From positions 1-49,561 of the forward strand of contig JANYDY010000040.1 of assembly GCA_025363435.1 (NCBI GenBank): DNA of 49,561 bases, in the 5' to 3' direction. Positions 7,944 through 19,743 of the stretch are shown piece by piece (positions within the stretch are counted from its first letter, which is position 1; every line of letters begins with the position of its first letter). A program made the translations under genes and the position numbers. Under the pieces are notes generated by a model that searched no databases, was not told the origin of the DNA, and saw only the letters and a program-made list of their open reading frames with translations. This DNA comes from Betaproteobacteria bacterium. Lineage in GTDB: Bacteria; Pseudomonadota; Gammaproteobacteria; Burkholderiales; SG8-41.

Positions 7944-8441
7944 CTAACGCCGTGTCGCCATGATGAAATCGGGAATGATGCCGAGCCGCCGGTAGCGCCG
8001 CACCGTGGCCGCGGGCAACCGCGCGACATTCCTGACCGATTTGCGGCAATTCGCCTCGCCGCAGTTGCAGCGCATCGTCCACACATCGTCGGCACCGAGC
8101 AGGCTCGAGTAGTCATGTGTCACTTCATCGCCTGCGACGATCGACACGATCGCCTTCAGCAACAGCTTGCGTCCACGCTTGACGATGCCTGCGTTTGGAT
8201 TGCAGGAATGGTTGGCATAGGCGCCGATTTTTCCGTTCGGGTCGATATAATGATCGTCGTCACAGCGAAAGCAGTTTGCACCCCGGCGCTCGTCGACATC
8301 CCAATAACCCCAGACCACATCGTCGCTGACGATCCTGCCGGTGACTTCCATGACAATGGCGCCGCGCCGGAAGTTTTTCAGCGCAACGATACCGCGGCCG
8401 TTGCGGACTTTTTTGACGGCGAGGGTTTTCTGCTCTGTCAT
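7944..8441 (-). CDS. Bacterial SET-domain protein (putative protein lysine methyltransferase)
   Basis: About 165 residues, essentially one SET domain. It has the N-terminal strand KKVRNGRGIVALKNFRRGA, the S-adenosylmethionine motif NHSCNPN, the catalytic region GDEVTHDYSS, and a post-SET zinc cluster CNCGEANC. SET proteins methylate lysines. Free-living bacteria have them sporadically and few targets are known. I prefer ATG 8441 (AGAGAG about 9 bases upstream) over the in-frame GTG at 8477, which lacks a ribosome site. The C-terminal tail (RRYRRLGIIPDFIMATRR) is basic. Neighbours are a lipoprotein and the ene-reductase and give no clue to the target. Confidence 0.85.
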   Translation of the reverse strand: MTEQKTLAVKKVRNGRGIVALKNFRRGAIVMEVTGRIVSDDVVWGYWDVDERRGANCFRCDDDHYIDPNGKIGAYANHSCNPNAGIVKRGRKLLLKAIVSIVAGDEVTHDYSSLLGADDVWTMRCNCGEANCRKSVRNVARLPAATVRRYRRLGIIPDFIMATRR

Positions 8442-8522
8442 TTCGTGAAATCTCTCTGCTATGAATGTTCTCGCCACGGATATTACCGCGGTGAATCTGC
8501 TGGTTCGGCCTGACAGGCGCCT

Positions 8523-9306: not shown

Positions 9307-10224
9307 CTAACGCTGCTTGCCCTTGCGCGCGACGCGACGTAATACTTCATGCACGATCGCCGTGTCCTGCTTGTCGAAACCGGCCGCCATCGCCATGTCG
9401 TAGTACTTTTTGCTGAGCGCAAAAAGCGGTGTCGGCGTTTTGATCGCCCTGGCGAAAGCGCCGATGATGGCGATGTCCTTCTGGTAGACATCGACCTTCA
9501 TAGTGGCGGGCAGATAATTACGCTTGATCATGAGCGGACCGCGCACTTCGAACATGCGCGAGGTACCGGCGCCATCCTTGATGACATCGTACATGAGCTT
9601 CGCATCGACCCCGGCCTCCTCCGCCATCACGAAGGCTTCAGCCGCCGAGAGATTGTGGATGGTGACGAGATGATTGGCGATGTATTTGAGTTTGGAACCG
9701 ACGCCGAATTTGCCGCAATAATAAGTATTGCGCGCCATGCCGGCAAACACGGCTTTGCATTTTTTGTAAGCGGCCGCGTCGCCGCTGGCGTAAACCACGG
9801 CGTCTTTGGCCGCCGCCTGCGCACCGGTGCCACTGATCGGGCAATCGAGCATAATGACGCCGATTTTAGCGAAACGCTTGCGCGCATCTTCCTTAAGCTT
9901 CAACGGCAACGTGCTGACTTCGACAACGACCGTGCCGCGTTTGGCGCCGGCGGCAATGCCGTCCTTGCCGAACAGCGCGGCTTCGAATGCCGCATACGAC
10001 GGCAGCGACGTAATAATAATCTTCTGGCTGGCGGCCACATCAGCGGCCGACGCGGCGACCACGCCACCCAGCTTTTTCAGTGCCTTGATGGCCGGCGGTG
10101 CAATGTCGAAACCGGTGACCTTGAAGCCGGCCGCCGTCAAATGTTTGGCGAACGCGCCGCCCATGATGCCGAGGCCGACGACGCCGACCGTGCCCGCGCT
10201 GCGCTTTCCTGCGTTTGCTTTCAT
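9307..10224 (-). CDS. 3-hydroxyisobutyrate dehydrogenase-like NAD(P) oxidoreductase
   Basis: A 305-residue beta-hydroxyacid dehydrogenase. The dinucleotide loop is VGVVGLGIMGGAFAKHL, followed by LDCPISGTGAQAA (substrate site) and the catalytic lysine region VGSKLKYIANHLV. The C-terminal helical domain has DVYQKDIAIIGAFA. The family oxidises 3-hydroxyisobutyrate, tartronate semialdehyde or similar hydroxy acids. The start ATG 10224 follows AGAGAT; the longer frame to 10320 has no family similarity and is cysteine-rich leader. It is the first gene of a leftward run and is divergent from the Gfo/Idh pair, suggesting a shared carbohydrate or hydroxy-acid theme. Confidence 0.9.
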   Translation of the reverse strand: MKANAGKRSAGTVGVVGLGIMGGAFAKHLTAAGFKVTGFDIAPPAIKALKKLGGVVAASAADVAASQKIIITSLPSYAAFEAALFGKDGIAAGAKRGTVVVEVSTLPLKLKEDARKRFAKIGVIMLDCPISGTGAQAAAKDAVVYASGDAAAYKKCKAVFAGMARNTYYCGKFGVGSKLKYIANHLVTIHNLSAAEAFVMAEEAGVDAKLMYDVIKDGAGTSRMFEVRGPLMIKRNYLPATMKVDVYQKDIAIIGAFARAIKTPTPLFALSKKYYDMAMAAGFDKQDTAIVHEVLRRVARKGKQR

Positions 10225-10415
10225 GCTATCTCTCGTTTTTGAAAAAAATGTCGCGCCGCAAGCCGTTTGCGGCGAAGAACAGCATGATTGCAGCACTCGG
10301 GCGCCCGCGCAAGTGCACACGCGGAGCGTTGGCCGTTAGGCTAAAATGTGTGCCCGCACCATGCGCCTGGCGCGTGGCACCCAAAGCATCCAATGCAAAC
10401 ACCGAAAGGACACTC
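10225..10415. promoter_or_regulatory. Divergent promoter region with terminator-like leader hairpin
   Basis: The gap between the divergent dehydrogenase and Gfo/Idh genes. At 10254-10274 CGCCGCAA and TTGCGGCG form a perfect 8-bp stem with a 5-base loop. On the minus strand it is followed after 5 bases by a run of seven T, so the dehydrogenase leader could terminate or attenuate. A possible plus-strand -10 box TAAAAT lies near 10343 without a convincing -35. Confidence 0.45.
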
Positions 10416-11492
10416 GTGAAGCAACTCAACATGGGAATTATCGGCACCGGCTGGTGCGGCGGCATCCGCGCCGAAACCTGCGCGCGCCATCCGCTCATCA
10501 AAAGCCTGCATATTGCGGAAACGCGACCGGAACGCCTTGCCGAAATGACCAAGCTGGTCAATCCCGCCACGGCGACCGCCGACTTCCGCCAGATCATTGA
10601 CAACAAGTCGATAGACGCCGTGATGATTTCCGCCACACCGGAAACGCTGCACTATCCGATGGCACGCGACGCGCTCAATTCCGGCAAACACGTGTTTCTC
10701 GAAAAGCCAATCGCCATCGAGCTGCACGAAGCCGACGACCTGATTCACATTGCTAAAAAGAACAATCTCAAATTCACCATCGGTTATTCGCAGCGTTTTA
10801 ATCCGAAATTCGCCTATGTGCACAAATGCGCCACCGACGGCACGCTCGGCAAACCGGTCAGCGCGCTGGTCAGCCGTCACATCGGCCGCGGCCTCGGCAA
10901 AAAAATCAACAGCCGCACCAAACTGTCGCCCGCCGCGATGGAAGCCACACACGACCTCGATTTTATTTTGTGGTGCCTGCTGCCGGCCAAACCGGTGCGT
11001 GTCTATTCGCAGGTCAACTACGGCGCGATGCGTGAGGCCACTGGCGCCGATTTTCCGGATACCCAGTACATCACGGTAACGATGGACAGCGGTGTGTCGT
11101 TCGTCGTCTGCGCCGGCTGGAGCCTGCCGCCCGCCTATCCGAATTTTTCAATGACCTGGATCGAATTCGTCGGCACCGAAGGCGCGCTGTTCATCGACGA
11201 CACCCACCGCGACACCCAGCTCACCACCATGAAAACCGGCATCGTGCATCCGATGTCGACCATGCCGGGCGAATTCGTCGAGCACACCTATGCCGGCCCG
11301 ATGAAGCCGGAGACCGTGGATTTCATCGAGGCCTGCGCCTGCGACCGCCCGGTGCTGGTGAAACCCGAGGAAGCGCGCCAGGTCATGGAGGTCTACCTCG
11401 CCGCCGACATTTCGGCCGAACGTAACGAGCCGGTGTCGCTGCCGCTGCCGGAATCGCGTCCGACCATGCTCGCAGCGGGAGGCGCGCGTTGA
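10416..11492 (+). CDS. Gfo/Idh/MocA family oxidoreductase
   Basis: A 358-residue NAD(P)-dependent oxidoreductase of the glucose-fructose oxidoreductase/inositol dehydrogenase family. It has the N-terminal Rossmann motif MGIIGTGWCGGIRAE, the EKP catalytic lysine motif in HVFLEKPIAIE, and a C-terminal alpha/beta domain with FVGTEGALFIDDTHRD. I place the start at GTG 10416, five bases after AAAGGA; upstream sequence in frame is unrelated. The family oxidises sugars, inositols or their acids. It overlaps the next, homologous gene by four bases and shares the unusual DDTHRD segment with it, so the pair probably arose by duplication and may form a heteromer or act in series. Confidence 0.92.
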   Translation: MKQLNMGIIGTGWCGGIRAETCARHPLIKSLHIAETRPERLAEMTKLVNPATATADFRQIIDNKSIDAVMISATPETLHYPMARDALNSGKHVFLEKPIAIELHEADDLIHIAKKNNLKFTIGYSQRFNPKFAYVHKCATDGTLGKPVSALVSRHIGRGLGKKINSRTKLSPAAMEATHDLDFILWCLLPAKPVRVYSQVNYGAMREATGADFPDTQYITVTMDSGVSFVVCAGWSLPPAYPNFSMTWIEFVGTEGALFIDDTHRDTQLTTMKTGIVHPMSTMPGEFVEHTYAGPMKPETVDFIEACACDRPVLVKPEEARQVMEVYLAADISAERNEPVSLPLPESRPTMLAAGGAR

Positions 11493-12604
11493 GAAAGCAG
11501 GCGAAAAAAATCGGCCTCGCCATTGTCGGCGCCGGCCGCGTCGGCTTGATCCGCGGCGAACTAGCCGCGCGACACCCGGCGGTGGAATGGATCGGCATCG
11601 CCGAAAAGAACCCCGAGCGCGCGAAGCTGGTTGGCGACAAGATCGGCGCCGAATTCGTCACCGCGGACTATCGCGAGCTGATCTCGCGCCCCGAGGTCAA
11701 TGCACTGATCGTTTCGACCGACGAGCACCTGCACGTCGACCCCATCCTCGCGGCCTGCGAACGCGGCCTGCCGATGCTCATCGAAAAACCGCTCGCCACC
11801 GATCTGGGCGAATCGCAGATGGTGATGGACGCTCTGGAACATGCAGGCATCGACGCGGTGATCGGCTACACCCAGCGTTTCCGCCGCCGCTGGCTGGTGG
11901 CCAAAGAAAAAGTGCGCAACGGTTCGCTCGGCGAAGTGACGATGGTGACCTCGCGTGCCTTCATGAACCGGCTGGTCGCCATCGACAATTACAAGCGATC
12001 TGACAATCCGGCGGAAATTTCGCCAATGGTGATCTCGGGCACACACGCGCTCGACATCGTCATGTGGCTGATGGAAGCGAAGAAGCCGGTTGAAGTCTAC
12101 GCCCGCTCGGTCAACAAGGCACTCGGCCCCACCTGGCAGGGCATCGATGGCACTGCTTACACCATCACGTTCGACGACGGCGCGATCTATCACGGTGTGA
12201 TTTCCTGGGCGCTGCCGGAAGTCTGGCCCGGCGCGGTCTACAGCCTCGAAGTCGGCGCGGTCGGCACCGAAGGCGTGCTGACTATCGATGACACCCACCG
12301 CGACATCGTGCTGGCGACCAATCTGGTGCAGGGCGAAGGCTACGCGCCGGACAAACGCCGCCACGTCGACTTTCTGACCAGCTATCCGGTCGGCGACATG
12401 GCTCTGGGCGAACTGCGCGGCCCGATGCGCGAGGAAACCAACTCGTGGCTTAACCGCGTGGCGCTTGGTTCAACCACGCAGCACGCCACCGCGCGCGAAG
12501 GTCATAACCGTTTGATGCTAACCAAGGCGATCGACCTCTCGGCACGGCTGAAAAAACCGGTGTCGCTGCCGATTTCGCCCGAAGACGAAAAACGCGGCCG
12601 CTGA
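11489..12604 (+). CDS. Gfo/Idh/MocA family oxidoreductase, TTG start coupled to previous gene
   Basis: A 371-residue homologue of the preceding gene. Landmarks are IVGAGRVGLIRGELAARHPAVE, MLIEKPLATD, the substrate-domain helix SGTHALDIVMWLMEA (supplying the conserved histidine) and VGTEGVLTIDDTHRD. Translation starts at TTG 11489, which overlaps the upstream TGA as TTGA. GGGAGG lies about 8 bases before it inside the upstream gene, so expression is translationally coupled. The likely role is oxidation of a sugar or cyclitol. A Bug receptor follows 57 bases later and may take up the substrate. Confidence 0.91.
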   Translation: MRKQAKKIGLAIVGAGRVGLIRGELAARHPAVEWIGIAEKNPERAKLVGDKIGAEFVTADYRELISRPEVNALIVSTDEHLHVDPILAACERGLPMLIEKPLATDLGESQMVMDALEHAGIDAVIGYTQRFRRRWLVAKEKVRNGSLGEVTMVTSRAFMNRLVAIDNYKRSDNPAEISPMVISGTHALDIVMWLMEAKKPVEVYARSVNKALGPTWQGIDGTAYTITFDDGAIYHGVISWALPEVWPGAVYSLEVGAVGTEGVLTIDDTHRDIVLATNLVQGEGYAPDKRRHVDFLTSYPVGDMALGELRGPMREETNSWLNRVALGSTTQHATAREGHNRLMLTKAIDLSARLKKPVSLPISPEDEKRGR

Positions 12605-12661: not shown

Positions 12662-13657
12662 ATGAAGCATTCGCGTTTGAAAGTTGCATCAGTCGCGTTG
12701 GCCGCGGCATTTTCGTGCTGCACGCTCAGTGCAACGGCGCAACCAGCCGATAAATTCCCGACCCGGCCGGTGCGCATGATCGTGCCGTATGCGCCCGGGG
12801 GCGCCACCGACATCGTGGCGCGGCAAGTCGCCCAGCGCTTGTCCGAGTTGTGGGGATATCAGGTGGTCGTCGATAACCGCGCCGGAGGCTCCGGCGCAAT
12901 TGCGCTCGAAACCGTTGCCCGCGCCACCCCCGACGGTTACACGCTGATGGTAGGCAACGTGTCGACCAACGCAATCGCCGAAACAGCATTTGCAAAAACA
13001 CTCTCGATCAAGCCGTCGCGCGACCTCACCGCCGTCACCAATCTGATCGAAATTCCACATATGTTCATCGCCAGCATGGCGGTTCCGGTAACTAATCTGA
13101 AGCAGCTTGCGGAATATGCGAAAACGGCGCCGCGCATGGCATACGCCTCTGCCGGTATCGCGTCCTACCCGCACCTCGATGCAGCGCGTCTGCTGAAGGC
13201 AATGGGCGTCGAAATGACGCATATTCCCTACAAGGGAGGTGCCGGCCAGATGATTCCGGCGATGATCGGTAACGAAACACAATTCACCATGCTGAATCTG
13301 GCGTCGACACTGCCGCATATCCGCGCTGGCCGCATGAAACCGCTGGCGACGACATGGCCGACCCGGCGCAGTGAATTTCCGGAAATTCAGACCATGGCCG
13401 AAGCGGGCTATCCAGGCATCGGCACCAATGCATGGAACGGATTGTTTGCGCCGTCGAAGATGCCGCCGGCGTTACTCACGCAAATTTACGCCTCGACGCT
13501 CAAAGTGCTGGACTCGTCCGAGATGAAGGAATCTCTCGGCAAACAACTGATCTCTGTCGTTCCCAGCAAGTCGCCCGCCGAATACGCGCGCTTCGTCAAT
13601 GAAGAAGTCGCAAAATGGGCGGCGGTGATTCGCGATAATAATATCTCTCTCGATTAG
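12662..13657 (+). CDS. Bug/TctC-family periplasmic solute receptor
   Basis: A 331-residue Bug receptor. A signal peptide covers about residues 1-28 (core VALAAAFSCCTLSATA). The mature protein has TRPVRMIVPYAPGGATDIVARQ, VVVDNRAGGSGAIALE, TPDGYTLMVG and IPYKGGAGQMIPAMIGNE. The start follows GGAGGAAACC. It is the third gene of the unit with the two Gfo/Idh oxidoreductases. The gap of 314 bases before the next gene suggests the transcription unit ends here. Confidence 0.93.
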   Translation: MKHSRLKVASVALAAAFSCCTLSATAQPADKFPTRPVRMIVPYAPGGATDIVARQVAQRLSELWGYQVVVDNRAGGSGAIALETVARATPDGYTLMVGNVSTNAIAETAFAKTLSIKPSRDLTAVTNLIEIPHMFIASMAVPVTNLKQLAEYAKTAPRMAYASAGIASYPHLDAARLLKAMGVEMTHIPYKGGAGQMIPAMIGNETQFTMLNLASTLPHIRAGRMKPLATTWPTRRSEFPEIQTMAEAGYPGIGTNAWNGLFAPSKMPPALLTQIYASTLKVLDSSEMKESLGKQLISVVPSKSPAEYARFVNEEVAKWAAVIRDNNISLD

Positions 13658-13971
13658 ACCGGCCGCGCGCCAGGCCCGCTTTATGCCTTGCCGTTATCGA
13701 TCATCTTTGATGGTAATCAAGTTCCGGCGCTAGAACTGCCCCTCGAACCCGTGCTAAACTTGCTCCCGATTCGTCGCCTTTTTTATGGATCGGCAGCTAA
13801 CTTCATGCCGAGAGCCGCTGGCGACACGGATGGTCGAGGAATTCTGCGCTGAAATCCAGAGCTGAATGTCCGGCGCGACGGCTGCAAAACCGCCCGCCGC
13901 GTTGACGATCTGCCCGTATTTGGCATTGCAAAGCTGAAGTAATTTGTCGATTAACTGAACCGGAGGAAATG
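13658..13971. other. Non-coding gap upstream of the M24/ADH operon
   Basis: This 314-base gap holds no credible gene on either strand. It should carry the promoter of the operon starting at 13972. I see a short inverted repeat (TTGAT-GGTA-ATCAA near 13708) and AT-rich patches near 13785 and 13935, but no promoter that I would place with confidence. A strong ribosome site, GGAGG, is at 13962-13966. Confidence 0.5.
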
Positions 13972-15249
13972 ATGGCCAATGTAGGCATGGTAGGGTTGGA
14001 CTGGCAAGAGCGCATCAACTGGAGTCGGCTGCGCACGTACCGGCTCGAGCGTGCCCGCGAGCGCATGAAGGCTCACGGCTTGGGCGCCATGCTGCTGATG
14101 TACGACGAAAACGTCCGTTACGTCACCAGCACCCTGACCCCGGGCTGGAACAAGCTGAAGCCCGGCCTGCGCTATTGCCTGCTGTGTGGTGATGATGCGC
14201 CGGTTCTGTTCGAGCAGGGCGACATCGGTCTGCATATCGAAAAGCATTCGCCGTGGATTCCGAAGGAAAACATCCGTTATTCGTACGCGTGGATCAAGGG
14301 CGCGGCCGGCCCGGCTTCGACCCAGCAGGTCACCAAGTTCACCAACGCGATCAAACAGGAAATGAAAAAGCGCGGCGTCGAGGGCATGAAGCTCGGCGTC
14401 GACTTTGTCGACATCAACATGATCCAGATCTTCAAGGAAGCGAAGATCGACTGGGTTGACGGCATGACACCGATGATGGAAGCGCGTGCGGTCAAGAACC
14501 AGGACGAGCAGGAATGTTTCCGCCAGGTCGGCGCGATCGGCGACGCTGCGCACTGGGAATTTATGAAATTCCTCAAGCCCGGCCTGACCGAGAACCAGCT
14601 GACCGCGCACATCATGGAGTTCCTCTACAACGTGCCCGGCATGGAAGACGTCGAGGACGTGATCGTGTCTTCGGGCCTCAACACCTGGCCGAACTGGCGC
14701 AACTTCTCCGACCGTATCATCAAGCCGGGGGACATGGTGTTCATGGATCTGGCCGCCTTGACCTGGAACGGCTACAAGTCCTGCTACTACCGCACCTATA
14801 TGGTCGGTCGCGAGCCGAACCAGGAGCAAAAAGATTATTACGCCACCGCGCTCAAGTGGCTTTACGACTCGATCAAAGTGGTCAAACCGGGCGTCACCAC
14901 CCGCGACATCGCGATGAAGTGGCCATCGGCAAAAGAAGCCTGGGGCTACGAAGAAGAAGACCAGGCCGCCGCCAACCTGTGGGGGCACGGCCTCGGCCTC
15001 GCGCAATATGACCAGCCGGTCATTTCGCGTATCTGGTCGCTCGATCACCCGATCGAAATCAAGGAAGGCATGACCTTCGCGCTGGAAACCCAGCATGGCA
15101 AGAATCACCAGTGGGGCGTGCGCATCGAGGAAATGCTCATCGTCACAAAGACCGGCTGTGAAATCGTGTCGAACTTCCCGGTCGAGCAAATTACCGTGGT
15201 CGATCCGATGCCCGGATATTCGGACTACGGCAAGTTGCCGGGCCATTAA
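13972..15249 (+). CDS. M24 peptidase-like (aminopeptidase P/creatinase fold) protein
   Basis: A 425-residue protein with the creatinase-like N-terminal domain (ARERMKAHGLGAMLLMYDENVRYVTS) and the pita-bread M24 domain from about residue 165. Four of the five usual metal ligands can be placed: D259 (GDMVFMDLA), H339 (GHGLGL), E372 (FALETQ) and E386 (VRIEEM). The second aspartate of the usual SD-x-TRT motif is a cysteine, C271, in YKSCYYRT. The family includes aminopeptidase P, creatinase, ectoine hydrolase and DMSP lyase DddP, so a non-peptide substrate is quite possible. Of two adjacent ATGs, 13972 has the better spacing to GGAGG. It is first in an operon with an alcohol dehydrogenase six bases downstream. 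Confidence 0.88.
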   Translation: MANVGMVGLDWQERINWSRLRTYRLERARERMKAHGLGAMLLMYDENVRYVTSTLTPGWNKLKPGLRYCLLCGDDAPVLFEQGDIGLHIEKHSPWIPKENIRYSYAWIKGAAGPASTQQVTKFTNAIKQEMKKRGVEGMKLGVDFVDINMIQIFKEAKIDWVDGMTPMMEARAVKNQDEQECFRQVGAIGDAAHWEFMKFLKPGLTENQLTAHIMEFLYNVPGMEDVEDVIVSSGLNTWPNWRNFSDRIIKPGDMVFMDLAALTWNGYKSCYYRTYMVGREPNQEQKDYYATALKWLYDSIKVVKPGVTTRDIAMKWPSAKEAWGYEEEDQAAANLWGHGLGLAQYDQPVISRIWSLDHPIEIKEGMTFALETQHGKNHQWGVRIEEMLIVTKTGCEIVSNFPVEQITVVDPMPGYSDYGKLPGH

Positions 15250-15255
15250 GCCTCA

Positions 15256-16299
15256 ATGAAGCAGTCCATACGCGCCGCGGTGCTTGCAGCACCGCGGCGT
15301 TTTAATCTGGTCGACCGCCCCGCTCCGGTCGCCGCGCCCGGTGAAGCCGTCGTTCGCGTCTCGTCCACCGCGGTCTGTCATACCGATTTGTCGATATTCA
15401 CCGGTGAACACCCGGGCATCAAATATCCGGTCATTCTCGGCCACGAATCGACCGGCATTGTTGAAAGTGTCGGTGATGGTGTCACCGGCATGAAGAACGG
15501 CCAGCACGTCATCATCAATCCGATTATTTCCTGCGGCCATTGCGATTCGTGCCTGCGCGGCGCGCAACAACTGTGCCGCAACGCCGGCCTGTTCGGCCGC
15601 GAAGTTGAAGGCTCGATGTGCGAATTCGTGCGTCTGCCTGTACGTTATCTGCACACACTGCCGGACGACATGTCGCTTGCCGATGCAACGCTGATTGAAA
15701 CGCTGGCAACCGTGCGCCACGCACAAGACCGGCTGGGCGTCAAAGCCGGCGAATCCGTTGTTGTGCTGGGCCAGGGCACCACCGGACTGCTGCATACGCG
15801 GCTCGCCGTGATTGCCGGCGCCAACCCGGTCATTGCGATCTCACGCACCAAATGGAAGCTCGACATGGCTACGCGCATGGGCGCGCACCACGTGCTCGAC
15901 ATCAGCGCGGAAAAAGCCGTGGATGAAGTACTGCGCCTGACCGGCGGCTCCGGTGCCGATATCGTCATCGACACCGCGGGCGGCGCCGCCACCCTGATGG
16001 CATCGATTGAAATGCTGCGTCCGGGCGGACGTTTATCACCTTACGCGGTCAGCCATGAATGCTGCACGCAGTTCACGACCTTCCCGCTTTATTACAAAGA
16101 AATCAGCATTATCGGTTCGCGCGCACTGAATCCAACCGATATGGCGCCGGCGATTGATCTCGTGGCCGGCGGCCAAATCGACGTCGCCGGTTTTGTTTCC
16201 GCAACCTATCCGCTGGATCGTGCCGCCGATGCGTTTGATGAATACGAGCGCAATCCCGGCAAGGTGCTGCGCATCGTCATCGATTCGACTGCGAGTTAG
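15256..16299 (+). CDS. Zinc-dependent medium-chain alcohol dehydrogenase
   Basis: A 347-residue MDR alcohol dehydrogenase. Catalytic zinc ligands are visible in AVCHTDLS (Cys) and LGHESTGIVESVG (His-Glu). The structural zinc loop is CGHCDSCLRGAQQLC. The coenzyme loop is VVVLGQGTTGLLHTRLA, with a following SRTKWKLDMA that leaves the NAD/NADP preference open. It would oxidise an alcohol to an aldehyde or ketone or the reverse. It begins 6 bases after the M24-like gene and ends one base before the PEP-utilising gene. The start lacks a strong ribosome site, so translation is probably coupled. Confidence 0.92.
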   Translation: MKQSIRAAVLAAPRRFNLVDRPAPVAAPGEAVVRVSSTAVCHTDLSIFTGEHPGIKYPVILGHESTGIVESVGDGVTGMKNGQHVIINPIISCGHCDSCLRGAQQLCRNAGLFGREVEGSMCEFVRLPVRYLHTLPDDMSLADATLIETLATVRHAQDRLGVKAGESVVVLGQGTTGLLHTRLAVIAGANPVIAISRTKWKLDMATRMGAHHVLDISAEKAVDEVLRLTGGSGADIVIDTAGGAATLMASIEMLRPGGRLSPYAVSHECCTQFTTFPLYYKEISIIGSRALNPTDMAPAIDLVAGGQIDVAGFVSATYPLDRAADAFDEYERNPGKVLRIVIDSTAS

Positions 16300-16300
16300 C

Positions 16301-17587
16301 ATGACGCAATACATTTTTCCGATTACTGATCCGGTTGCGACAGACGCCGGCCGTGTCGGCCCGAAGGCCGCAAACCTTGCGCGCATGGCTAACGCCGGCC
16401 TGCCGACTCCACCGGGCTTCTGCATCGACGCATCCGCCTACCGCGCACAGATTCACGCCCTCGGCCTTGATGACGATGCGCGCGGCGTGATGAGCGCCAC
16501 CGAAAGCCCGCAGGCGCGCCGGCATGCGCTGAACATGAAACTGGGTCTGCTCGACAAGGCGATCACACCGGAAATTCTCGAACCGCTGCTGGCTGCGCGT
16601 CAAAAGCTGATCGACGAAACCGGCGCCCTGCTGTGCGTGCGCTCCTCGGCCTTAGTCGAAGACCGCTTCGGTTCGAGTTTTGCCGGCCAGTTCGAAAGCT
16701 TCATCGGCATCGAATCGGAAATCGACTTTATTACGGCGGTGAAATCGTGCTGGGGTGCGCTGTGGATGACGCGCGCGCTGCGCTACATGGCAACCCATGA
16801 CATCGATCCCGCCGACACCGCGATGGGCGTACTGGTGCAACCGCTGATTTCGGCGCGCGCGTCCGGCGGCGGCTTGAGCACATCCGCCGAAGGCAGCATG
16901 CTTTTAAGCGCGACTTGGGGCCTCGGCTCCGCCATTGCGCAAGGCGAAGTCACGCCGGATCGTTATGAACTGCGCCGCGACGCTTCGGTTGTCAGCATCA
17001 CCCCCGGCCTCAAGGATCACCAAGTCGGCTGCGCGCATAAAGCCGAGCCGACCACCACCATGGTGCCGAAGAACATGATCACGGAACCCTGTCTGTCGGA
17101 GGCAGAAGCACAAGAACTCGGCAAACTGCTGCTGCGCGTCGAAAAATTCATGGATATGCCGGTCGAGATCGAATGGGCGATCGACGACAAGGGCTTCAAG
17201 CTGCTGCAGGCGCGCCCGCTGCACACGGCAGAGGCGACAGTGCCCGATGCGATTTGGGAAGGACGCCCGCGCCTGAACGGCCACGCCGCCGGCATCGGCT
17301 GGGGCACCGGCCGCGCCTGCGTCATTAACTGCGAATGCGAAATGTCGCGGGTTGCGCCCGGCGACATCCTGATCACCAAGGTGGCCGGGCCGGCGCTCAG
17401 CCACATCCTGAACAAGGTCGCCGGCGTGGTCGCCGAGCGCGGCGGCAGCACTTCGCATATGGCCTCGCTTGCGCGCGAACGCGGCATTCCGATGGTATTG
17501 GGCGTGCTCGACGCGACGCAGCGCATTCCCGACGGTTCGACTGTTGCCGTCGATGGCGTAGCGGGCGTCGTGCGCTGGATGAATTGA
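16301..17587 (+). CDS. Two-domain PEP-synthase-like phosphohistidine protein
   Basis: A 428-residue protein with the ATP-grasp domain of PEP synthase/PPDK at about residues 10-310 and the swivelling phosphohistidine domain at about 340-428. In the first domain GPKAANLARM, CVRSSALVEDRFGSSFAGQFES, WGLGSAIAQGEVTPDRYE and EIEWAIDDKGFKLLQARPL are all intact. In the second, GGSTSHMASLARERGIP carries the phosphorylated H386. The C-terminal PEP/pyruvate barrel is absent, and so is the inserted substrate domain of rifampin phosphotransferase. It should phosphorylate its own histidine from ATP, but the acceptor is not visible. Start ATG 16301 lies one base after the dehydrogenase stop; its own stop overlaps the next start (TGATG). 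Confidence 0.9.
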   Translation: MTQYIFPITDPVATDAGRVGPKAANLARMANAGLPTPPGFCIDASAYRAQIHALGLDDDARGVMSATESPQARRHALNMKLGLLDKAITPEILEPLLAARQKLIDETGALLCVRSSALVEDRFGSSFAGQFESFIGIESEIDFITAVKSCWGALWMTRALRYMATHDIDPADTAMGVLVQPLISARASGGGLSTSAEGSMLLSATWGLGSAIAQGEVTPDRYELRRDASVVSITPGLKDHQVGCAHKAEPTTTMVPKNMITEPCLSEAEAQELGKLLLRVEKFMDMPVEIEWAIDDKGFKLLQARPLHTAEATVPDAIWEGRPRLNGHAAGIGWGTGRACVINCECEMSRVAPGDILITKVAGPALSHILNKVAGVVAERGGSTSHMASLARERGIPMVLGVLDATQRIPDGSTVAVDGVAGVVRWMN

Positions 17588-18576
17588 TGCGCCCGCGGGT
17601 GTTCATCACCCAGCCGGTCGCGGCCTCGGCGGTCGAGCGCTTACGCGCAGTGGCCGACGTGACGATGAATCCGGATATGCTGCACATCGCCAGCAGGGAC
17701 GAACTGATCGCTGCGGCAGGAACGCACGACGTGCTGTTCTGCCTGTTGCACGATCACATCGGCAGCGATGTCATTGCCGCCAATCCGAAATTGAAAGCGA
17801 TCGCGTCCACCACGATCACACCGGCCGATATCGATATCGCCGAAGCCACACGCCATCGCATTCCGGTAACCGTCATCCCCTCGGTATTGCTTGACGACGC
17901 TACCGCCGATCTGGCGTGGGCGCTGCTGTTCGCGGTCGGCCGCCGCGTCGTCGAAGCCGATCGCCTGGCCCGTGCCGGCGTGATTCCCGGTTCGCAATCG
18001 AATTATCTGTCGGCGCACGGCGTCTCAGGCAAAACGCTCGGCATACTGGGCATGGGTGGCGTTGGTCGCGCCATGGCGCAGCGCGCCACCGGCTTTCCGA
18101 TGCGGCGCTGCTACCATGACCCGCAGCGGCTCGCACTGGCGGATGAAGCCGCGCTCGGGTTGACCTGGCTGCCGTTCGACGAACTGTTGGCGACAGTCGA
18201 TTACCTGTCGATACACGTCAATCTCAACGCAAAGACACGCCATCTGATCGGAACACGCGAACTGGCATTGATGAAACCGGCTGCGTACCTGATTAACACG
18301 GCGCGCGGGCCGATTGTCGATGAAGATGCGCTGATCGCCGCCCTGCAGGAAGGCCGCATTGCTGGCGCCGGCCTCGATGTCTTCGAGCACGAACCCGGCA
18401 TCGCCCCGGTGCTATTGGGGCTGCCCGGCGTTGTCGTGACCGCACATATGGGCAGCGCCGTCGACAGCCTGCGCGAGGCAATGGCGGCGGTTGCCGTCGA
18501 CAATATCCTGGCGGTGCTGGCCGGCCGCCCCGCCCCCAATTGCTGGAACCCGGAGGTGTATTCCCGCACCGCCTGA
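17587..18576 (+). CDS. D-2-hydroxyacid dehydrogenase (glyoxylate/hydroxypyruvate reductase-like)
   Basis: A 329-residue D-isomer-specific 2-hydroxyacid dehydrogenase. The Rossmann loop is LGILGMGGVGRAMAQRA. All three catalytic positions are present: Arg in NTARGPIVDEDAL, Glu in LDVFEHEPG and His in VVTAHMGSA. It would interconvert a 2-oxo acid and a D-2-hydroxy acid. The start ATG overlaps the upstream stop by one base (TGATG), so it is tightly coupled to the phosphohistidine protein. A 101-base gap with AT-rich sequence separates it from a second, only distantly related family member. Confidence 0.92.
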   Translation: MRPRVFITQPVAASAVERLRAVADVTMNPDMLHIASRDELIAAAGTHDVLFCLLHDHIGSDVIAANPKLKAIASTTITPADIDIAEATRHRIPVTVIPSVLLDDATADLAWALLFAVGRRVVEADRLARAGVIPGSQSNYLSAHGVSGKTLGILGMGGVGRAMAQRATGFPMRRCYHDPQRLALADEAALGLTWLPFDELLATVDYLSIHVNLNAKTRHLIGTRELALMKPAAYLINTARGPIVDEDALIAALQEGRIAGAGLDVFEHEPGIAPVLLGLPGVVVTAHMGSAVDSLREAMAAVAVDNILAVLAGRPAPNCWNPEVYSRTA

Positions 18577-18677: not shown

Positions 18678-19667
18678 ATGGCTGCAAAAGCAAAGGTTGT
18701 ATTGACCGATTATGTGTGGGATTCGCTCGATGTCGAAAAGAAAACGCTCGCGGGTCTGGCTGATCTGGTAGCGCTGCAAACCAAGAAACCTGAAGAATTC
18801 ATTGCCGAGGCCGCCGACTGCGATGCCTTGCTTAATACCTATGCGGGCCCGATCACGGCCGACGTCATGGCGAAAATGCCGAAATGCAAAATCATCGCGC
18901 GCTACGGCATCGGCGTTGACACCATCGACCTCGAAGCCGCCACGGCGGCCGGCATCATCGTCACCAACAATCCGACCTATTGCGTTGAGGAAGTCGCCGA
19001 CCACAGCATGGCGATGGTGCTTACCTGCGCGCGCAAAATTGCGTTTTACGATCGTCAGGTGCGTGCAGGTCAGTGGACAGTGCCGCCGGGCAAACCGATG
19101 TTCCGCCTTGCCGCCTGCACCATGGGCCTGGTCGGTTACGGCAATATCGCGCGCCAGGTCGCTATTCGCGCCGCGGCATTCGGTATGCGCGTGATTTATT
19201 CCGACCCCTTCGTCAAAGAGGGCCAATTCGACACGCCGGGCCGCAAAGTCGAGCTCAATGAGCTGCTCAAGAAGTCGGATTTCATTTCGGTACACGCGCC
19301 CCTGATGGCGCAGACACGCAAGATGTTTAACGACGAGATGTTCGGCATGATGAAATCGACCTCTTTCATCATCAACTGCTCGCGCGGCCCCTTAATCGAC
19401 ACCGATGCGCTGGTGCGCGCACTCGACGCCAAAAAAATTGCCGGCTGCGCGCTCGACACCACGGATCCGGAACCCCTGCCCAATCCGCATCCGCTGCGCA
19501 ATCGCGAAAACGTGATTATCAATCCGCACGCGGCCTGGTACAGCGAACAGGCGATGGTTGGTTTGCAGGCCGGCGCGCCTAGTGAAGTGCGCCGCGCCCT
19601 CTCCGGCGAATGGCCGGTCAACGTCGTCAACAAGGCCGTTAAAGGCAAAAGTCGCGCGGGTATATAA
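18678..19667 (+). CDS. D-2-hydroxyacid dehydrogenase, CtBP/phosphoglycerate dehydrogenase-like
   Basis: A 329-residue member of the D-2-hydroxyacid dehydrogenase family, closer to CtBP-type proteins (DYVWDSLDVEKK start, NPHAAWYSEQAMVGLQ end). The nucleotide loop reads LVGYGNIARQVA, with alanine in place of the third glycine. Catalytic Arg is in NCSRGPLIDTDAL and His in NPHAAW. The acidic catalytic position is an aspartate (LDTTDPEP) rather than the more common glutamate, a variation seen elsewhere in the family. The start has AGGAG 9 bases upstream. A strong terminator follows at 19712, so this is the last gene of the rightward block. Confidence 0.9.
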   Translation: MAAKAKVVLTDYVWDSLDVEKKTLAGLADLVALQTKKPEEFIAEAADCDALLNTYAGPITADVMAKMPKCKIIARYGIGVDTIDLEAATAAGIIVTNNPTYCVEEVADHSMAMVLTCARKIAFYDRQVRAGQWTVPPGKPMFRLAACTMGLVGYGNIARQVAIRAAAFGMRVIYSDPFVKEGQFDTPGRKVELNELLKKSDFISVHAPLMAQTRKMFNDEMFGMMKSTSFIINCSRGPLIDTDALVRALDAKKIAGCALDTTDPEPLPNPHPLRNRENVIINPHAAWYSEQAMVGLQAGAPSEVRRALSGEWPVNVVNKAVKGKSRAGI

Positions 19668-19711
19668 GTCTTTTGAAGGGCTGGCGCCCCTCAACGCGGT
19701 AAAAATCAAAG

Positions 19712-19743
19712 GCCGCTTCAGTTTATTCTGAAGCGGCTTTTTG
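19712..19743 (+). terminator. Rho-independent terminator of the rightward block
   Basis: GCCGCTTCAG and CTGAAGCGGC form a perfect 10-bp stem with a 6-base loop (TTTATT), directly followed by TTTTTG. It sits 44 bases after the dehydrogenase stop. An A-rich stretch on the left side may let it work weakly in the other direction too. Confidence 0.92.

Follow-up and report, generated by a model that had tools for sequence, protein, structure and literature searches.

A truncated PEP synthase and an M24-fold protein form the fixed core of a variable bacterial operon and may make up a split dikinase

Among the small-molecule dikinases, HpeHI, CreHI and PpsAB are two-component enzymes; in HpeHI the split falls between an ATP-grasp chain, HpeI, and a chain combining the swivel domain with a RIF-like substrate domain, HpeH (PMC12167813). 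A different reduction is seen in mycobacterial VadK (Rv1127c), a pyruvate phosphate dikinase (PPDK) lacking the pyruvate domain, which autophosphorylates at His422 and associates with enzymes of the methylcitrate cycle (PMC13400623). On the M24 side, the dimethylsulfoniopropionate (DMSP) lyase DddP has six invariant metal ligands, D295, D297, D307, H371, E406 and E421 (PMC4108388). The locus considered here, from an uncultured betaproteobacterium (contig JANYDY010000040.1 of assembly GCA_025363435.1, 49,561 nt, the whole of which is called the window below), touches on all three. It pairs a gene for an M24-fold protein (M24) with one for a truncated phosphoenolpyruvate (PEP) synthase carrying a phosphohistidine domain (PH), and is best explained as a conserved, horizontally spread catabolic module in which NAD-linked dehydrogenases, transporters and hydrolases vary around a fixed M24-PH core. 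Its genes, with Pfam assignments, are as follows.

13969-15249, + strand: M24, core gene 1, M24 fold, 426 aa (Creatinase_N and Peptidase_M24)
15256-16299, + strand: ADH, accessory Zn-dependent medium-chain alcohol dehydrogenase, 347 aa (ADH_N and ADH_zinc_N)
16301-17587, + strand: PH, core gene 2, ATP-grasp plus phosphohistidine swivel domain, truncated PEP synthase, 428 aa (PPDK_N and PEP-utilizers)
17587-18576, + strand: DH1, accessory D-2-hydroxyacid dehydrogenase, 329 aa (2-Hacid_dh and 2-Hacid_dh_C)
18678-19667, + strand: DH2, second D-2-hydroxyacid dehydrogenase and commonest accessory gene, 329 aa (Pfam)

The first four open reading frames (ORFs) are intact and tightly packed, with gaps of 6 and 1 bases and then a 1-base overlap (TGATG), as a first-pass annotation of the window had described; DH2 starts 101 bases past DH1. 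That annotation had the M24 locus right but began it at 13972, the second ATG of an ATGATG, where the ORF runs from 13969.

Among 84,980 species genomes scanned, 334 PH relatives came up; the analysis covers the 80 best of these and their neighbourhoods, in which genes were identified by scripted ORF calls and BLAST to the window's proteins. By their titles, all but one of these records are metagenome-assembled genomes (MAGs), the remaining title naming a bin. In every one of the 48 loci whose sequence reaches 6 kb or more upstream, M24 immediately precedes PH or is separated from it by one ADH, and in 73 of the 80 it lies upstream on the same contig. Six of the seven genomes whose PH contig has no M24 carry an M24 orthologue on another contig. 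The other genes come and go: DH2 is found in 65 loci, DH1 in 53, and ADH in 22, always between M24 and PH where the contig holds M24. The commonest order is M24-PH-DH1-DH2 (26/80), followed by M24-PH-DH2 (14/80) and M24-ADH-PH-DH1-DH2 (13/80). The arrangement recurs across several classes and phyla and is not due to chance, so the suggestion that the four genes form a conserved unit holds, though with a fixed core of two rather than four. Treating the four as one equal set does not stand, with M24-ADH-PH-DH1 in just 15 of the 80 loci and only M24 and PH inseparable; the window's set is one variant of a broader module in which ADH, DH1, DH2 and an upstream pair of Gfo/Idh genes are optional.

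Genome-level counts give the same picture. Among 300 genomes of the order, PH (E<=1e-60) occurs in seven and M24 orthologues (82-100% identity) in the same seven, the next M24 matches being no more than 37% identical (Fisher p ~2e-14, kinship ignored). Of the 74 genomes in the window's family, 39 have both genes, 32 have neither and three are discordant, two of these with M24 genes cut at contig ends and one with PH beside a broken M24. M24 is also the most conserved gene across the loci (mean identity 84%, against 69% for DH2 and 66% for PH), and its divergence follows that of PH (r 0.62) more closely than PH follows DH2 (r 0.39).

PH consists of the first two domains of PEP synthase without the pyruvate domain. 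Its ATP-grasp domain (PPDK_N, residues 18-313, E 3e-61) and swivel domain (PEP-utilizers, 352-422) have their motifs intact and align to residues 5-460 of the 798 in PEP synthase, the N-terminal 60%. The C-terminal pyruvate/PEP-binding barrel is missing from both the alignment and an AlphaFold2 model (pLDDT, the predicted local distance difference test, 82), which stops past the swivel domain with no third domain; Foldseek matches this model to rifampin phosphotransferase (RPH), PEP synthase and HpeI. Against the curated PEP synthase model NF005057 the score is 255.6 bits, well below the cutoff of 598, and against the PPDK model just 31 bits. Across 23 diverse members there is no variation at Lys22, Arg114, Glu289/Glu291, Gln303, Arg305 or His386, the last (codon 17456-17458) lying within the swivel motif GGSTSH. 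The first-pass annotation recognized a two-domain phosphohistidine protein but overlooked the absence of the acceptor domain of full-length dikinases. Lacking that domain, PH has on its own no known target to phosphorylate, and by the known mechanism of the dikinase class (PMC12167813) its phosphoryl group would have to go to a separate molecule or protein.

The AlphaFold2 model of M24 (pLDDT 87) has its best Foldseek matches with DddP (template modelling score 0.80-0.82 over ~407 columns; PDB 4b28, 4s00), ahead of peptidases (prolidases), creatinase and the ectoine hydrolase DoeA. Alignment to 4s00 and prolidases shows that four of the six DddP ligands are kept, as Asp260, His340, Glu373 and Glu387, while Asp297 is replaced by Ala262 and Asp307 by Cys272. 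The protein scores far below the cutoffs of both the DddP equivalog (NF043017, 97.2 bits against 600) and DoeA (TIGR02993, 57.7 against 613). Nor does it have the ligand set of the metallopeptidases (prolidase/aminopeptidase P), the second Asp being Cys272 (codon 14782-14784) in all 71 orthologues with a readable column. M24 paralogues of 35-38% identity that have no PH partner share this Cys, so that it marks a larger M24 subfamily, and the idea that it identifies a pseudoenzyme adapted to PH was dropped. Such paralogues adjoin 2-oxoacid dehydrogenase E1/E2 genes in Phaeobacter (by its Prokaryotic Genome Annotation Pipeline annotation) and in two to three betaproteobacterial loci (by ORF reading), which suggests that the Cys-type subfamily may feed 2-oxo acids to the next enzyme, a role that would fit DH1 and DH2. 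No characterised member of the subfamily was found. It is large, with the signature D..GY[KR][ST]CYYRT[FY], and members without PH adjoin 2-oxoacid/acetoin-type dehydrogenase genes at L141, L142, L143 and L127 (a Phaeobacter inhibens plasmid).

The reading favoured here, with a probability of roughly 0.38, is that the operon is a catabolic module in which PH and M24 act as a split dikinase, M24 providing the acceptor side, on a carboxylate-like substrate. As in PEP synthase, ATP would phosphorylate PH on its swivel histidine, His386, and PH would hand the phosphoryl group to an outside acceptor, most likely a substrate in the M24 active site. The support comes from the obligate pairing, the loss of the acceptor domain together with the invariant ATP-grasp and histidine residues of PH, the conservation of M24 and its covariation with PH, the resemblance of the M24 model to a lyase, and neighbours that handle 2-oxo acids (DH1/DH2, HMGL-like and FAH-family proteins); that HpeHI works as two chains makes a two-chain dikinase feasible (PMC12167813). 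On this reading the two proteins would form a physical complex and amount to a dikinase cut just past the swivel domain, with the DddP-like fold replacing the pyruvate barrel. A hydroxyl or enol might plausibly be phosphorylated, with accompanying or subsequent beta-elimination to a 2-oxo acid, which would then be processed by DH1/DH2 or, in other lineages, by an HMGL-like enzyme. The substrate would probably be a carboxylate (such as a hydroxy or sugar acid), imported by Bug/tripartite tricarboxylate transporter (TTT) systems or by branched-chain-type ATP-binding cassette (ABC) transporters. The boldest version, in which M24 and PH are a single enzyme whose DddP-like pita-bread component offers the acceptor site for an ATP-driven phosphorylation-elimination on a hydroxy acid, is rather unlikely as a whole.

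Several observations weigh against a split dikinase. No M24-PH fusion occurs in the 80 loci, and the six PH ORFs longer than 500 aa have just out-of-frame upstream extensions and short tails. The Cys272 substitution is shared with the paralogues that lack a PH partner, so the altered metal site does not count as adapted to PH. The high conservation of M24, which had been considered as evidence of a complex, was dropped as such, since it is unremarkable: unpaired paralogues are 83% identical among themselves and the PH-paired proteins 87%. Operon neighbours also co-occur for many reasons besides forming one enzyme. An alternative is that the two proteins are neighbours simply through serving consecutive steps as independent enzymes, M24 being a lyase or hydrolase and PH an ATP-dependent kinase that phosphorylates a free intermediate at its own domain interface. 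The optional dehydrogenases mark the module as a metabolic pathway, catalytic residues are intact in both proteins save for the Cys and Ala ligand changes in M24, and paralogous M24 proteins in the Cys subfamily do without PH. This arrangement is nonetheless slightly less likely than the split dikinase, as PH has no acceptor-binding domain, unlike PEP synthase, PPDK, RPH and HpeH, and every other pathway gene has been lost in some lineage while M24 is never parted from PH.

The same constancy bears on a regulatory role, in which PH would autophosphorylate and exert control over the pathway through M24 or the dehydrogenases, which it would bind or phosphorylate in place of a metabolite. VadK offers a precedent, having the same two-domain architecture, autophosphorylation and binding to metabolic enzymes (PMC13400623). 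Some lineages would however be expected to do without a regulator, where PH is as obligate as M24, and PH falls on the PEP synthase side (255 against 31 bits for PPDK), so the resemblance reflects parallel truncation; a VadK-like kinase is accordingly unlikely, and ranks below independent enzymes as those rank below the split dikinase. Least probable by far is that PH is what remains of a PEP synthase, or an alternative fragment of one, lending phosphate to central metabolism (pyruvate or the phosphotransferase system), with M24 unrelated to it. Its sequence is similar to the swivel domains of PEP synthase and enzyme I, and 16 loci have a gene for a GTP-type PEP carboxykinase close by. But the carboxykinase gene is on the opposite strand, was seen only in betaproteobacterial loci and was judged to reflect regional synteny; a PEP synthase-like gene of full length (C35, an open frame of 807 aa) is present elsewhere in the window's genome, as is a match resembling enzyme I (C25); and the pairing with M24 would be left unexplained.

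Around the core, as read from the sequences, ADH keeps its zinc-binding Cys and His, and DH1 and DH2 retain the Arg, Glu and His typical of active D-2-hydroxyacid dehydrogenases. The first-pass annotation had proposed that DH2 and a Bug receptor upstream might belong with the four genes, and both are real and often part of the unit. The features flanking the operon are these.

9307-10218, - strand: divergent 3-hydroxyisobutyrate/tartronate-semialdehyde-reductase-like dehydrogenase, a weak member of the module (ORF reading; start codon provisional)
10410-11492, + strand: GfoA, Gfo/Idh/MocA oxidoreductase, frequent upstream neighbour (Pfam)
11489-12604, + strand: GfoB, Gfo/Idh/MocA oxidoreductase, frequent upstream neighbour (Pfam)
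12662-13657, + strand: TctC/Bug solute-binding receptor, frequent upstream neighbour (Pfam TctC)
19708-19741, + strand: terminator-like hairpin with a 14-bp stem, closing the operon after DH2 (consensus scan, a match to which is by itself no evidence of function)

In the 48 loci with 6 kb upstream, the Bug receptor is found within 7 kb in 24, GfoB in 21 (in the same order in L016-L018), GfoA in 15, and a relative of the divergent dehydrogenase within 7 kb in eight. Transport genes vary by lineage, with Bug/TTT in many and branched-chain-type ABC systems in others, and suggest a small organic acid as substrate, though not which one. A perfect 13-bp G+C-rich hairpin followed by T, just inside the ADH frame (15272-15300, + strand), was considered as an attenuator and rejected; its stem is not kept in the nearest relatives and it is probably due to chance. 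No riboswitch or other RNA was found at Rfam gathering thresholds between 8000 and 22000 in the window. Further upstream, a 177-aa ORF (7944-8477, - strand) resembles a bacterial SET-domain protein.

By the names in the MAG record titles, the 80 loci span Beta-, Alpha- and Gammaproteobacteria, Acidobacteriota and SAR324, in bacteria from soil, groundwater, lakes and the sea. Four records titled Bordetella parapertussis (L016, L053, L058 and L061) group with uncultured betaproteobacteria, and their labels look wrong. The module is patchy, as it was found in just one genome, the window's own, of a broad phylum sample of 399. In a tree of M24 and PH, the five Acidobacteriota rows, which do not include L019, fall among betaproteobacteria and require three changes. 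Transfer fits these loci better than mis-binning, because in at least two of the acidobacterial loci, L019 and L023, the genes downstream are distinct (one DH2-like at 41-43%, the other HMGL-like); single bins may still be mis-binned. A plasmid collection held no PH or M24 match of at least 60% identity. HMGL-like metallolyase genes lie near M24-PH in Acidobacteriota, one Rhodospirillaceae MAG and SAR324 (L019, L023, L091 and L093; PF00682 in L023), and in L091 and L093 DH1 and DH2 are absent.

The literature searches turned up no pathway matching the four-gene set, in agreement with the first-pass annotation, and no dikinase with an M24-fold acceptor component. As the module recurs in several phyla but nearly always in MAGs, culture-based work would have missed the M24-PH pair, which now offers a two-protein starting point toward the substrate of a widespread uncharacterised pathway. 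A separate two-component dikinase pair (a PEP-utilizing enzyme and a PEP/pyruvate-binding protein) was noticed on Rhizobium leguminosarum plasmid pRlBT01c (L130), with genes for a biotin carboxylase, a haloacid dehalogenase (HAD) hydrolase and an acetoacetate-CoA ligase, and resembles the Hpe acetophenone pathway.

If M24 and PH do form a split dikinase, this enzyme class would have a second mode of division and the M24 fold a role of a new kind. Like HpeHI, the two proteins would be a catabolic ATP dikinase divided over two genes, with an ATP-grasp domain and a swivel histidine, and the crystal structure of HpeI (9goj) is among the matches to the PH model. Unlike HpeHI, the pair has ATP-grasp and swivel domains fused in one chain, with the substrate domain missing and an M24-fold protein as constant partner. 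VadK is likewise a two-domain ATP-grasp and histidine protein without the PEP/pyruvate domain, but comes from the PPDK lineage and regulates the methylcitrate cycle, with no M24 partner described in the available part of the source (PMC13400623), whereas PH belongs with the PEP synthases and is encoded in a catabolic operon.

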